64,000 nucleotides of DNA from Sporomusa sphaeroides DSM 2875. GTDB lineage: Bacteria > Bacillota > Negativicutes > Sporomusales > Sporomusaceae. Positions 30,402 to 37,424 of the stretch are shown piece after piece. Location of the stretch: NCBI RefSeq assembly GCF_001941975.2, contig NZ_CP146991.1, forward strand, positions 3,407,001-3,471,000, read 5' to 3'. The notes below the pieces were generated by a model that did not search any database, was not told the DNA's origin, and saw only the letters and a program-made list of their open reading frames with translations. A program made the translations under genes and the position numbers. The first letter of the stretch is position 1. Every line of letters begins with the position of its first letter.

Positions 30402-31439
30402 TTATACTAACTCCCAACTTACCGCAGTACCTCTTTTAACATCTTTCTTCACCGTTTTATCCAACAACTCATTATAATACTTTGGGCTCAGCCCCAGGCC
30501 TGGCCTAATCGACCTCATATTTTTCTCTGTTATTACATCGCCAGCTTTCATATCCTCCACGATATACAAGCTTCTTCTAAATTGGAAAGATTTTTTTTCT
30601 TGTTCGCCAACCTCATAGCTAATATGTCCTAATGCCTGCCACGCATTTCTCGTTTCCTGTACCAACTGTGCCATTTCTGCCGGCTCCATGGAAAAGGCGG
30701 AGTCTACGCCACCATCGGCACGCGAAGTTGTAAAATGTTTTTCAATTACACTTGCACCAAGCGCTACACTGGCGACAGCCACTCCTATCCCTAACGTATG
30801 GTCAGATAATCCAACTTCACAATTAAATAACTGCTTCATATGCGGAATTGTGATCAGATTGGTTCCTTCCGGTGTAGACGGGTAACTGCTTGTACATTTT
30901 AATAACACTAAATCCTTACAGCCATTCTCTCTTGCCGTTTTAACAAGATCATCTAATTCTGCAACAGTAGTCATTCCTGTAGAAACAATCATCGGCTTAC
31001 CTGTCCGCGCAACCCTCTTTATCAATGGCAAATCTATATTTTCAAAAGAAGCAATCTTATAGCACGGAACATCTAAGCTTTCTAGGAACTCCACAGCGGT
31101 TGCATCAAACGGCGTACTAAATCCCATAATACCTAACTCTTTACAGCGTTTGAAGATCGGTTCATGCCATTCCCACGGTGTATAGGCTTTTTGATACAGC
31201 TTATATAAAGAAGTTCCTTGCCATAGGCTGTTTTTATCGGCAATGAAAAATTCTCTGTCATCAATATTCAGTGTCATTGTATCTGCCGTATAGGTTTGCA
31301 GCTTAATTGCATCCACCCCAGCCTTTGCCGCCAGTTCAACGATCTCCAAGGCTCTGTCGAGGGATTGATTATGATTGCCCGACATCTCTGCAATAATAAA
31401 AGGCGGCCGATTTTTATCTATATGAAATGCTGTATTCAT
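30402..31439 (-). CDS. pseI: Pseudaminic acid synthase PseI (NeuB family)
   Basis: A 345-residue cytoplasmic enzyme that condenses 2,4-diacylamino-trideoxy-altrose with phosphoenolpyruvate to pseudaminic acid. The NeuB TIM barrel covers about 1-270: PFIIAEMSGNHNQSLDRALE, AIKLQTYTADTMT, FSTPFDATAVEFLE, VGLSDHTLGI and the metal-site EKHFTTSRADGGVDSAFS. A C-terminal antifreeze-like SAF domain (about 290-345) follows with RRSLYIVEDMKAGDVIT. The sequence fits PseI better than NeuB or LegI. It is the last gene of the maf-pse operon. Confidence 0.9.
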   Translation of the reverse strand: MNTAFHIDKNRPPFIIAEMSGNHNQSLDRALEIVELAAKAGVDAIKLQTYTADTMTLNIDDREFFIADKNSLWQGTSLYKLYQKAYTPWEWHEPIFKRCKELGIMGFSTPFDATAVEFLESLDVPCYKIASFENIDLPLIKRVARTGKPMIVSTGMTTVAELDDLVKTARENGCKDLVLLKCTSSYPSTPEGTNLITIPHMKQLFNCEVGLSDHTLGIGVAVASVALGASVIEKHFTTSRADGGVDSAFSMEPAEMAQLVQETRNAWQALGHISYEVGEQEKKSFQFRRSLYIVEDMKAGDVITEKNMRSIRPGLGLSPKYYNELLDKTVKKDVKRGTAVSWELV

Positions 31440-31454
31440 TCCTTTATTTCTCCT

Positions 31455-32150
31455 TTAACTAATCAATCTTCCCAAAGAAAATGCTTCCGCAAACTGACAT
31501 CCTATTACCGTTCCACGATATTTAGCTAGAATTTCGACAGACTCATATGATCGCGAATGCGGATATTCTCTCATCTCAGAATCATAACACTTCAAAGCTT
31601 CCATTTTTTTAGCAAAAGTAGCCTCTATATCCACAAACCAATTCGCCATGAATATTTTGTCGCAAGTTCCTATCTGCCATTCTGTACTTGACAAGGTTTC
31701 AAAAAACAATATTGTTTTTACTGTCTGTCCAGGAAGTGGACGGCATGCCGTAATAACTGCATTATGTGTTACTGTATGATCTACATTTACATCTCCGGCA
31801 TGGTGCGTATAAACCATATCTGGCTTTATAGTTTCTACCATTTCTTCAACTTTTTTTACTACATCGAGTAACTCCACACCATCCATCCTATTGTCTGGAA
31901 AATCACATATTTTCAAGCTTTTTACGCCCATTATTTTTGCAGCTTGATAAGTATTCGCATAAAGTTGGCTTAATTCTTTGTTTCGCAGCGATACATCTCG
32001 CCTAACATCCCGGCTTGTCAAACCTTCTGCCATTATTAAAACATGTACTTCATCGCCGTTTAGAACATGCTTTATAATCGTTCCGCCACATCCTAATATC
32101 TCATCATCCGGATGTGCTGCCACAATTAAAATTTTTTTATTTTTTTTCAT
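31455..32150 (-). CDS. PIG-L (LmbE-like) N-deacetylase
   Basis: A 231-residue zinc-dependent deacetylase. The zinc motif AAHPDDEILGCGGTI is near the N terminus and the second ligand region THHAGDVNVDHTVTHNAV near 110-125. The family removes N-acetyl groups from sugars such as GlcNAc-PI or bacillithiol precursors. In this operon it probably acts on a pseudaminic-acid precursor or on the finished sugar, but the substrate is unknown. ATG 32150 (after TTGAGG) is preferred to TTG 32159. It overlaps the formyltransferase-like gene by 14 nt, which supports coupling. Confidence 0.85.
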   Translation of the reverse strand: MKKNKKILIVAAHPDDEILGCGGTIIKHVLNGDEVHVLIMAEGLTSRDVRRDVSLRNKELSQLYANTYQAAKIMGVKSLKICDFPDNRMDGVELLDVVKKVEEMVETIKPDMVYTHHAGDVNVDHTVTHNAVITACRPLPGQTVKTILFFETLSSTEWQIGTCDKIFMANWFVDIEATFAKKMEALKCYDSEMREYPHSRSYESVEILAKYRGTVIGCQFAEAFSLGRLIS

Positions 32151-35293: not shown

Positions 35294-36438
35294 TGAAAAA
35301 CCTCTTGCAAGGCTTTTACCACTTCATCCTGCTGTTCATCCGTTAAGCCATAATAAAGCGGCAATGTAAATACCTCTTTATAATATTGCTCACTATTGGG
35401 GAAATCGCCAATCTTAAAGCCAAGTTGCTGATAATACGGCTGCGTATGTACCGGAATATAATGCAGATTTAACATTATTCCCTTTTCCCGCATCCTGGCA
35501 AAAATATTTTCCTTAGATAATTTGACTTTCGTCAAATCCAGCCTTACTACATAGATATGCCAGGATGAATTTGTTTCTGAACTCTGATACGGCAGTGTCA
35601 GTGGTAAACCCTTCAACAACTCATTATATCTATCTGCCAGATATCTGCGTCTGGCAATAAATTCATCTAATCTATCCATCTGACTGTATCCCAAAGCAGC
35701 CTGCATATCGGTCATCCGATAATTAAAACCTAAGTCAATTTGCTGATAATACCAGGGGCCGTCCGATTCACCTTGTAACATGGATTCATCCCGGGTAATG
35801 CCGTGACTGCGGAGCAGTTGCAATTTCTGGTATAACGCTTCACTATTCGTTAATACCATGCCACCTTCCCCGGTTGTGATGATTTTTACCGGATGAAAAC
35901 TAAATACCGTCATATCGGAATACTTGCACGAACCGACCTTTGTGTCCTGATAGTCCGCACCAATGGCATGAGAGGCATCTTCGATAACAATAAACCCATA
36001 TTGCTTGGATAACGTGTAAATTCGTTCCATCTCACAGGATTGCCCGGAAAAATGCACCGGAATCACAACTTTAGGCTTTACCTGTGCCTCTGCCAATTTT
36101 TCTGCAAGCGTATCAACACTCATATTATAGGTATCATTATCAATATCAACAAAGTCTACATCAGCTCCGCAGTAACGCCCACAGTTAGCGGATGCAACAA
36201 AGGTGTTTGGACTTGTCCAGAGAACGTCACCTTTTTTAAGACCTGCCGCCAGACAGGCTATATGAAGCGCCGCTGTGGCATTGGTCACAGCTACGGCATA
36301 TTTTACGCCGCAATATTCCGCTACACGTTTTTCAAACATTTCAATAGCAGGACCTTGCGTAAGAAAGTCTGATCGTAAAACATCAATAACTGCCTGAATA
36401 TCCTGCTGATTTACATTCTGCTTTCCATAGAATATCAT
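35290..36438 (-). CDS. pseC: UDP-sugar aminotransferase PseC
   Basis: A 382-residue PLP-dependent DegT/DnrJ/EryC1 aminotransferase. It aminates C4 of UDP-2-acetamido-2,6-dideoxy-arabino-hexos-4-ulose, the PseB product. It shows [46 protein letters not shown] and the PLP lysine in [16 protein letters not shown]. The N-terminal [18 protein letters not shown] is typical of PseC. It overlaps pseB by 4 nt and pseF by 4 nt. Confidence 0.94.
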
Positions 36439-37424
36439 AAATTATTCATCTCTCTTAATTCTTCTATTGTCAAGAAATGAGGATTTGTCCCCGAATTATA
36501 CTCAAATCCATCTGGTACCGGCTTGCCCGTTTCACCCATTACATTTTTCGTATAATCAGTGTCATGAGCAAAATTAATACTCGGTTGAATGACATAATGG
36601 TCTGCAAATTCCAGTGTCTCATAGTAAGAATCGGACGGACACATAATTTCATGTAATTTTTCTCCGGGACGAATGCCAATAATTTTTGTTCGCACGCCTG
36701 GCGCAATTGCTTCTGCCAAGTCCATAATACGCATGGAAGGTATCTTCGGAATAAAGACTTCTCCCCCCTGCATCCGTTCAAAGCTCTTCAAAACAAATTC
36801 CACACCGTCTTCTAATTTGAGCCAAAACCGTGTCATTCGTTCATCTGTGATCGGGAGCTCTGTGGCACCTTGTTTGATAAGATTCTTAAAAAAAGGTACG
36901 ACTGAACCACGTGAGCCAACAACATTTCCATAGCGTACCACCGAAAATCTTGTTGGACGATCTCCTACAAGATTATTAGCAGCCGTAAATAATTTATCCG
37001 AACAAAGCTTGGTTGCCCCATACAGATTAATAGGATTCGCAGCCTTATCGGTAGAAAGGGCGATCACTTTTTTTACGCCGCATTTTATCGCCGCATTTAT
37101 GACATTTTGCGCGCCATTTACATTGGTCTTAATACATTCCATGGGATTGTATTCTGCTGCTGGTACCTGTTTTAAGGCAGCGGCATGCACTACATAATCC
37201 AAGCCGTACATAGCCTGTTCCAATCTATATTCATCACGTACATCACCGATAAAATAACGCATACACGGCTGATTAAAGACCTGTTGCATTTCAAACTGTT
37301 TCAATTCATCACGGGAAAAAACGATGATCTTTTTCGGATTATATTTTTTTAATAAAAGCTCAATAAACTTCTTGCCAAACGAGCCTGTGCCACCTGTTAT
37401 TAAAACCGATTTATCATTAAACAT
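36435..37424 (-). CDS. pseB: UDP-GlcNAc 4,6-dehydratase (inverting) PseB
   Basis: A 329-residue short-chain dehydrogenase that starts the pathway by oxidising, dehydrating and epimerising UDP-GlcNAc with bound NADP. It has the Rossmann [19 protein letters not shown], the [13 protein letters not shown] segment, [20 protein letters not shown] with the catalytic Lys of this family, and [19 protein letters not shown] 37424 with GGAG before it is preferred over ATG 37445. It is the first pse gene, 43 bp after maf. Confidence 0.95.

Follow-up and report, generated by a model that had tools for sequence, protein, structure and literature searches.

Which sugar is made by a pseudaminic acid operon that has no detected PseH acetyltransferase and that contains two formyltransferase-like genes and a deacetylase? 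The question is raised by a stretch of 64,000 nucleotides from Sporomusa sphaeroides DSM 2875 (contig NZ_CP146991.1, positions 3,407,001 to 3,471,000), here called the window. The operon runs on the minus strand from 37445 to 30402 in the order pseB-pseC-pseF-pseG-FT1-FT2-PIG-L-pseI, where FT1 and FT2 are the formyltransferase-like genes and PIG-L is the deacetylase gene. Nonulosonic acids differ mostly by the groups at N5 and N7, of which the one at N7 is accounted for by PseH or PseJ. We suggest, with fair confidence, that the product of this operon is a pseudaminic acid in which formyl replaces both acetyls (Pse5Fo7Fo), carried on flagellin, all of the reactions being predicted from the gene content.

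PseC yields a free C4 amine, for which a transferase alone suffices. The C2 nitrogen comes acetylated from N-acetylglucosamine (GlcNAc), so a deacetylase is needed before re-acylation. Therefore, we place FT1 at C4 (later N7), and PIG-L together with FT2 at C2 (later N5). In the proposed pathway PseB and PseC would form UDP-4-amino-4,6-dideoxy-L-AltNAc, FT1 would formylate its C4 amine in PseH's place, PIG-L would strip the C2 acetyl that stems from GlcNAc, and FT2 would formylate the amine freed in this way. PseG, PseI and PseF would then lead to CMP-Pse5Fo7Fo, and the neighbouring Maf-like transferase would attach the sugar to flagellin. The gene order suggests that PIG-L and FT2 may act after or around PseG; the exact intermediate and the order of the steps are our prediction. 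The computed residue masses are 288.096 for Pse5Fo7Fo, 302.111 for a mono-formyl sugar and 316.127 for the diacetyl sugar Pse5Ac7Ac. An initial annotation of the locus had expected a mass 14 or 28 Da below Pse5Ac7Ac; the product predicted here is the di-formyl one, 28 Da lighter, not the one that is 14 Da lighter.

Association of FT2 with the PIG-L deacetylase

Named genomes were scanned with an alignment of two FT2 proteins, and of the 83 relatives found in many phyla 80 were kept (their loci carry L numbers below). The bacterial phyla with FT2 range from Bacillota to Verrucomicrobiota, and one archaeon also has it. PIG-L is present in 79 of the 80 loci, including L011, the locus that prompted the idea of a pairing. 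The two genes lie on the same strand in all 79, their centres are less than 1 kb apart in 55, and the PIG-L protein scores at least 100 bits in 78 (in L055 it is fragmented and reaches only 63 bits). In L080, the sole locus without PIG-L, the contig stops 107 bases past the FT2 open frame. Gene orders vary (FT2-PIG-L, PIG-L-FT2 and PIG-L-pseG-FT2), and most of the loci contain pse-type genes. The two genes are also together in L180, which was sampled via FT1, and on a Picosynechococcus plasmid. FT2 and PIG-L are a unit separate from FT1, and this unit recurs across many bacterial phyla.

The pairing is also seen in loci sampled through the pse genes. This sample consists of 52 loci, 40 from Bacillota found via PseI and 12 from the order of the source genome found via PseG; the PseI set was drawn from 66 matches outside the window and holds all 37 above the cut-off and 3 below it. 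PIG-L is present in all four loci with FT2 (L131, L140, L150 and L170) compared with 2 of the 48 without (L134 and L165), giving a Fisher p of 5.5e-5. L170 is the same locus as L011 and came through PseG; among FT2 loci found via PseI only, PIG-L is present in three of three, and p is 4.8e-4 when L170 is removed. Five of the 46 loci with neither FT2 nor PIG-L lie on contigs shorter than 5.4 kb, and dropping these five gives a p of 8.4e-5. As PIG-L proteins form a broad family that is used in many loci, the gene could be imagined as a housekeeping or proofreading deacylase, associated with FT2 as a by-product of operon shuffling. We find this hardly probable at all, as the pairing spans many phyla despite the variable gene order and PIG-L is absent from 46 of the 48 pse-sampled loci without FT2.

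If FT2 and PIG-L act at C2, another gene would be expected to serve C4. Candidates for this step were counted anywhere within the fetched locus. A PseH-like protein (at least 90 bits) without FT1 is found in 14 of the 80 FT2 loci, not always in the slot itself, while FT1 without such a PseH is found in 15, four of which also have a weaker GNAT; in 20 loci a weak GNAT domain is fused to PseG, PseI or FT2. PseH, FT2 and PIG-L are combined in the Fredinandcohnia of L028, for example, for which a mono-formyl sugar with its formyl on N5 would be expected. The initial annotation had mentioned that the deacetylase and the second transferase could swap the other N-acetyl for formyl, and this suggestion is the better supported of its two, FT2 being almost never without PIG-L, even beside PseH.

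Formylation could also be restricted to the C4 amine. FT1 would then give Pse5Ac7Fo, and FT2 would be a backup or would serve another glycan, with PIG-L engaged in that other work. Pse5Ac7Fo is described as a natural component of a Pseudoalteromonas polysaccharide (PMC3210612), a PseG-FT1 fusion exists without PIG-L and FT2 in L174 and L175, and in L182-L185 PseG is followed by an FT1-like protein. However, this explanation is unlikely because it leaves unaccounted for the pairing of FT2 and PIG-L in 79 of 80 loci, mostly with pse-type genes and with any kind of C4 gene. The roles of the two transferases could also be swapped, with FT2 acting on the C4 amine and FT1 on the deacetylated C2 amine, as both are formyltransferases of the same fold kind and the product in the window would be identical either way. 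We consider this quite unlikely: in the 14 loci with a PseH-like protein and without FT1, FT2 and PIG-L stay paired, and a PseH acting at C2 would merely restore the acetyl.

Seen from the side of PIG-L, the association is looser. Matches to PIG-L were found in 30 of 398 Bacillota genomes and, in the class to which Vibrio aquaticus belongs, in 14 of 339; these 44 genomes gave 35 newly fetched loci and 9 already in the set. FT2 is present in 8 of the 15 closest matches (at least 286 bits), and five of the other seven loci have another candidate acylating or amidating gene. The close loci without FT2 include L212 and L216 with ATP-grasp genes, L213 with a different formyltransferase, L214 with WbqC, and also L134 and L181; in L188 an open frame looks GNAT-like by eye, with no Pfam match at 1e-5. 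Among the 35 new loci FT2 occurs in three (L189, L215 and L217), and another Formyl_trans_N protein is found near PIG-L in ten (L191, L194, L196, L198-L200, L202, L206, L220 and L222), adjoining or overlapping it in nine. L188, L212-L214 and L216, mentioned above, are five more of the 35. Nine loci were taken as legionaminic-type without a clear formyltransferase (L201, L203-L205, L207-L210 and L221, with a 24-bit match in L205), and eight have neither a formyltransferase nor PseI (L190, L192, L193, L195, L197, L211, L218 and L219). This asymmetry, FT2 nearly always with PIG-L and PIG-L in several settings, is what a deacetylate-then-reacylate scheme would predict. The ten loci with another formyltransferase are not typical Pse operons, and other amino sugars may undergo a swap of this kind.

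The varied company of PIG-L brings in a further explanation, in which it frees the C2 amine and this either stays free or is a substrate of some other enzyme. FT2 would then be a C4 transferase that is favoured for a different reason, and not the catalytic partner of PIG-L. Other partners do exist, namely the ATP-grasp and WbqC genes of L212, L216 and L214, an ATP-grasp gene beside PIG-L in L165, which was taken for a Leg-type locus, and the genes of L181 (8742-12381). The latter is a pse-type locus with FT1 and PIG-L, in which GATase, His_biosynth and ATP-grasp genes lie between FT1 and PseI, and it is perhaps an amidino-group variant. However, none of these partners is found among the operon genes of the window and FT2 hardly ever occurs without PIG-L, which makes this explanation very unlikely here. 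A broader scheme is possible, and we give it somewhat less than even credence: PIG-L would be a general N-deacetylase for C2/N5, and exchangeable partner enzymes (FT2, other formyltransferases, ATP-grasp ligases, amidotransferases and WbqC) would refill the amine, FT2 being the formyl version, so that the window would make Pse5Fo7Fo.

Families and predicted roles of the three additional genes

By profile, metal-binding motifs and predicted fold, the third additional gene is an intact member of the PIG-L/LmbE family. The AHPDDE motif is kept in 74 of 77 rows (the other three are gapped) and H128 in all 77. The model has a pLDDT of 94.2, and its nearest folds according to Foldseek are diacetylchitobiose deacetylase, BC1534 and BshB (8bgo and 2ixd among the matches). 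The protein stays below the cut-offs for the bacillithiol deacetylases BshB1/BshB2, with 73.6 bits against 182.5 for TIGR04001 and 63.1 bits against 195.25 for TIGR04000.

FT2 passes the gathering score of Formyl_trans_C_2 and falls just below that of Formyl_trans_N (24 against 26.1), and it matches PDB 1zgh with an E-value of 1.2e-69 over 221 residues. It was rejected as a methionyl-tRNA formyltransferase, at 29.1 bits against the TIGR00460 (fmt) cut-off of 201.5. A tree of 59 rows was built from 27 FT2 proteins (25 random draws, that of the window and that of L009) and 32 FT1 or FT1-like proteins; three pairs of rows repeat one gene (the window and L008, L006 and L175, L007 and L174). A branch with 100/100 support separates the 27 FT2 rows from FT1 and the FT1-like proteins. 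A recent tandem duplication giving rise to FT1 and FT2 was rejected, as this fully supported branch parts the two families. Two natural fusions were seen: PseH and FT2 form one open frame in L083 (6001-6609), and a piece of FT2 is joined to a piece of PIG-L in L088 (5899-6651).

FT1 is above the Pfam gathering score of Formyl_trans_N, and its model (pLDDT 95.7) has a formyltransferase fold according to Foldseek. Its position is best seen by comparison with L005/L011, on a contig of Sporomusaceae UBA7701 (genome G026) of the same order, where the genes run pseG-PseH-FT2-PIG-L-pseI. There, PseH is at the place of FT1 and FT2 is 58% identical to that of the window. Therefore, FT1 stands in the PseH slot, and FT2 and PIG-L are independent of FT1. 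The same layout as in the window is found in Propionispira arboris (L009), which is also nearest to the window in both halves of the tree. Fusions of FT1 with PseG are seen in six loci, L034, L046, L052, L058, L174 (7246-7884) and L175 (9097-9735), and fusions with PseH in L035 and in L180, the locus that also contains FT2 and PIG-L. Searches for FT1 gave matches in 3 of 398 Bacillota genomes and in 7 of 369 genomes of the Vibrio aquaticus class, and a search of plasmids gave no match.

FT1 is not a PseJ orthologue by sequence: the FT1 profile scores PseJ at 35.8 bits, 1zgh at 74.9 and ArnA at 61-66, and PseJ is not among the 50 listed of the 152 matches that Foldseek gives for FT1 at E 0.001. 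That the gammaproteobacterial FT1-like group L182-L185 contains the PseJ orthologues is not supported either, PseJ not being among the matches listed at E 0.001 for the L183 protein. As a methionyl-tRNA formyltransferase, FT1 scores 51.1 bits against the same fmt cut-off of 201.5.

The initial annotation had noted the absence of pseH from the window and asked whether it lies elsewhere in the genome. A PseH profile built in this analysis has no match within the window, and no PseH is over the cut-off in the whole genome, which is 99.99% complete: TIGR03585 reaches at most 27 bits there, its cut-off being 93.1. As a control, the 28 genomes of the order were scored with the same model, and six of them have a match above the cut-off. 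The PseH of a relative, used as query in a search without positive control, gave no match in the source genome at E 0.01. An unlinked GNAT outside the window (L002) scores 24 bits on TIGR03585 and 53 bits on our own broader PseH profile, on which unambiguous PseH proteins from pse loci reach about 200-260. It is plausible that FT1 formylates the PseC-made C4 amine in place of acetylation, because it stands where PseH would be expected and the genome searches detected no PseH. The earlier proposal of a 7-N-formyl sugar fits both points, and a replacement of this kind was already known.

Several observations weigh against the di-formyl pathway. Sugar formyltransferases usually carry a catalytic Asn-x-His ... 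Asp. The His and Asp of this triad are invariant in FT1, as are His76 and Asp112 across 78 rows of FT2; the Asn two before the His is absent in 19 of 19 FT1 rows (V or I instead) and in 77 of 78 FT2 rows (I, C, V, G or L instead), and the activity of both families is therefore uncertain. PseH-like, FT1 and FT2 proteins occur together in 3 of the 80 FT2 loci and in L180, so that acyltransferases outnumber amines. No C4 candidate is found in 15 of the 80 (some of which have other genes at that place, such as a methyltransferase in L012 and another formyltransferase in L049) and only a weak separate GNAT in 13, contig ends being partly responsible. One of the three FT2 genes found via PseI, that of L131, is split in two frames. 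L133, counted as a locus without FT2, has a GNAT-formyltransferase fusion (6876-8021) in a pse locus without PIG-L; this fusion combines two different acyl transfers for presumably one amine. Finally, among eight FT1 or FT1-like loci without FT2, PIG-L is present in two (L134, which also holds a methyltransferase, and L181) and absent from six (L174, L175 and L182-L185); L174 and L175 are close relatives from the PseG sample, and L186, on a 4.6-kb contig, was left out. PIG-L can therefore serve other chemistry, and with two of eight the FT1 loci are weaker than hoped as proof that PIG-L tracks only FT2.

Organisation of the operon and its surroundings

The coordinates and gene list given initially hold, as do the two formyltransferase-like genes and the deacetylase between pseG and pseI, with which the Pfam matches agree. 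PseB, PseC, PseF, PseG and PseI are all above the curated NCBIfam cut-offs (Table 1), and PseG, with 362 residues, is free of a GNAT domain, as had been stated. The genes from pseG to pseI had been described as all overlapping. This is correct for pseG/FT1 and for FT2/PIG-L; FT1 and FT2 are separated by 29 bases (32842-32870), and PIG-L and pseI by 15 bases (31440-31454). PIG-L starts at TTG 32159 or ATG 32150. The open frame of FT1 reaches to 33563, but ATG 33521, with its good ribosome-binding site, is the probable start.

Table 1. Genes of the operon and its upstream neighbours, with positions in the window
Gene and predicted function	Position	Strand	Evidence
pseI, pseudaminic acid synthase	30402..31439	-	TIGR03586 511.7 bits, cut-off 340
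N-deacetylase of PIG-L/LmbE type, predicted to act on the C2 (future N5) acetyl	31455..32159	-	PF02585 100.7 bits, gathering score 28.2
FT2, Formyl_trans_C_2/1zgh-family formyltransferase, predicted to act on the amine freed by PIG-L	32137..32841	-	PF21553 82.6 bits, gathering score 27
FT1, formyltransferase in the pseH slot, predicted to act on the PseC-made C4 amine	32871..33521	-	PF00551 36.7 bits
pseG, UDP-sugar hydrolase	33505..34593	-	TIGR03590 308.7 bits, cut-off 153.6
pseF, CMP-pseudaminic acid synthetase	34574..35293	-	TIGR03584 303.9 bits, cut-off 205.7
pseC, C4 aminotransferase	35290..36438	-	TIGR03588 567.3 bits, cut-off 423.5
pseB, 4,6-dehydratase/5-epimerase	36435..37445 (alternative start 37424)	-	TIGR03589 561.1 bits, cut-off 407.8
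Maf/PseD-like protein, candidate flagellin glycosyltransferase	37468..39333	-	PF01973 MptE-like 138 bits; NF050051 PseD 162 bits, below cut-off 670
Flagellin, likely acceptor	39375..40586 (start probably internal ATG 40547)	-	Flagellin_N 167 bits, Flagellin_C 101 bits

The Maf/PseD-like gene and the flagellin gene lie directly upstream of the pse operon, and flagellin is therefore the likely acceptor. High-similarity FT2 was found in 2 of 28 genomes of the order, the source and G026; two further genomes have weak matches of 39-45 bits, inside PseG-FT1 fusions. In the eight other genomes of the genus (G010-G017, one of them only 58% complete) no FT2 match was found at E 1e-5. Only G011, G012 and G015 of these eight have a PseG over the cut-off, in loci of another layout. 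The operon of the window looks like a replaced flagellin-glycosylation cassette, because the genomes of the same genus are without FT2 and their three PseG loci are arranged differently.

Further flagellin genes are found elsewhere in the window. The regions 18881-21832 and 27473-29997, on the minus strand, contain a flagellin and a broken partial copy. The flagellin has 983 residues, with Flagellin_N and Flagellin_C at its ends and a long middle part, and the partial copy lies about 6 kb from it, divided between two frames. Between them lie two transposase-like genes (22995-24302 and 24785-26065), IS110-like by eye, and a small open frame on the plus strand (26892-27203) has the look of a ParE/RelE-type toxin, again by eye only.

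Comparison with known systems

If the pathway suggested here is correct, a deacetylase with exchangeable partners would be a testable answer to the variety at N5, and glycan variants would become predictable from genomes. The naming of a protein family would also be put right, its solved member being labelled a methionyl-tRNA formyltransferase. This member, 1zgh from Clostridium thermocellum, is of the same family as FT2. However, its label does not fit FT2, given the score of 29 bits against the fmt cut-off and the pse-type genes alongside in most sampled loci.

With the Pse5Ac7Ac pathway of Campylobacter and Helicobacter (PseB-PseC-PseH-PseG-PseI-PseF) the window shares PseB, PseC, PseG, PseI and PseF. 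It differs in having no detected PseH and, in addition, two formyltransferases and a deacetylase. PseJ (PDB 6ci4, 6ci5, 6edk and 6ci2), which we take to be the formyltransferase of a 7-formamido pseudaminic acid pathway, is also a formyltransferase of a pse pathway and probably performs the same step as FT1. However, FT1 is of another sequence family, and PseJ explains neither FT2 nor PIG-L.

Formyl is named among the groups that the N5 and N7 of nonulosonic acids can carry (PMC6388019). In Halorubrum sp. PV6, 5-N-formyl-legionaminic acid is described, in which the formyl is likewise at N5, and its gene cluster includes a candidate formyltransferase (PMC6137143). The main text of that paper contains none of the words deacetyl, PIG-L and LmbE. 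Compared by description only, the system differs in that the sugar is legionaminic and not pseudaminic acid, and in that an RT-PCR (reverse transcription PCR) product of 953 bp implies a formyltransferase longer than FT2. The flagellin of Clostridium botulinum is described as carrying Leg5GluNMe7Ac, in which an N-acyl group of a flagellar nonulosonic acid is replaced, as is predicted here; the acyl group and the sugar are different ones, and the two papers name the substituents differently (PMC13317340, PMC2674064). In the main text of the former, a 2026 survey of pse loci in Clostridium, formyl, deacetylase, PIG-L and LmbE are absent. Among the open-access matches listed, judged by title or the start of the abstract, no description of a PIG-L/formyltransferase exchange in nonulosonic acids was found. 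Geobacillus islands are described that have pse genes and lack PseH, and some of these islands carry a formyltransferase gene (PMC5109656). The replacement of PseH by a formyltransferase is thus known in kind, from PseJ and from Geobacillus, and the exchange by PIG-L and FT2 is the newer part.

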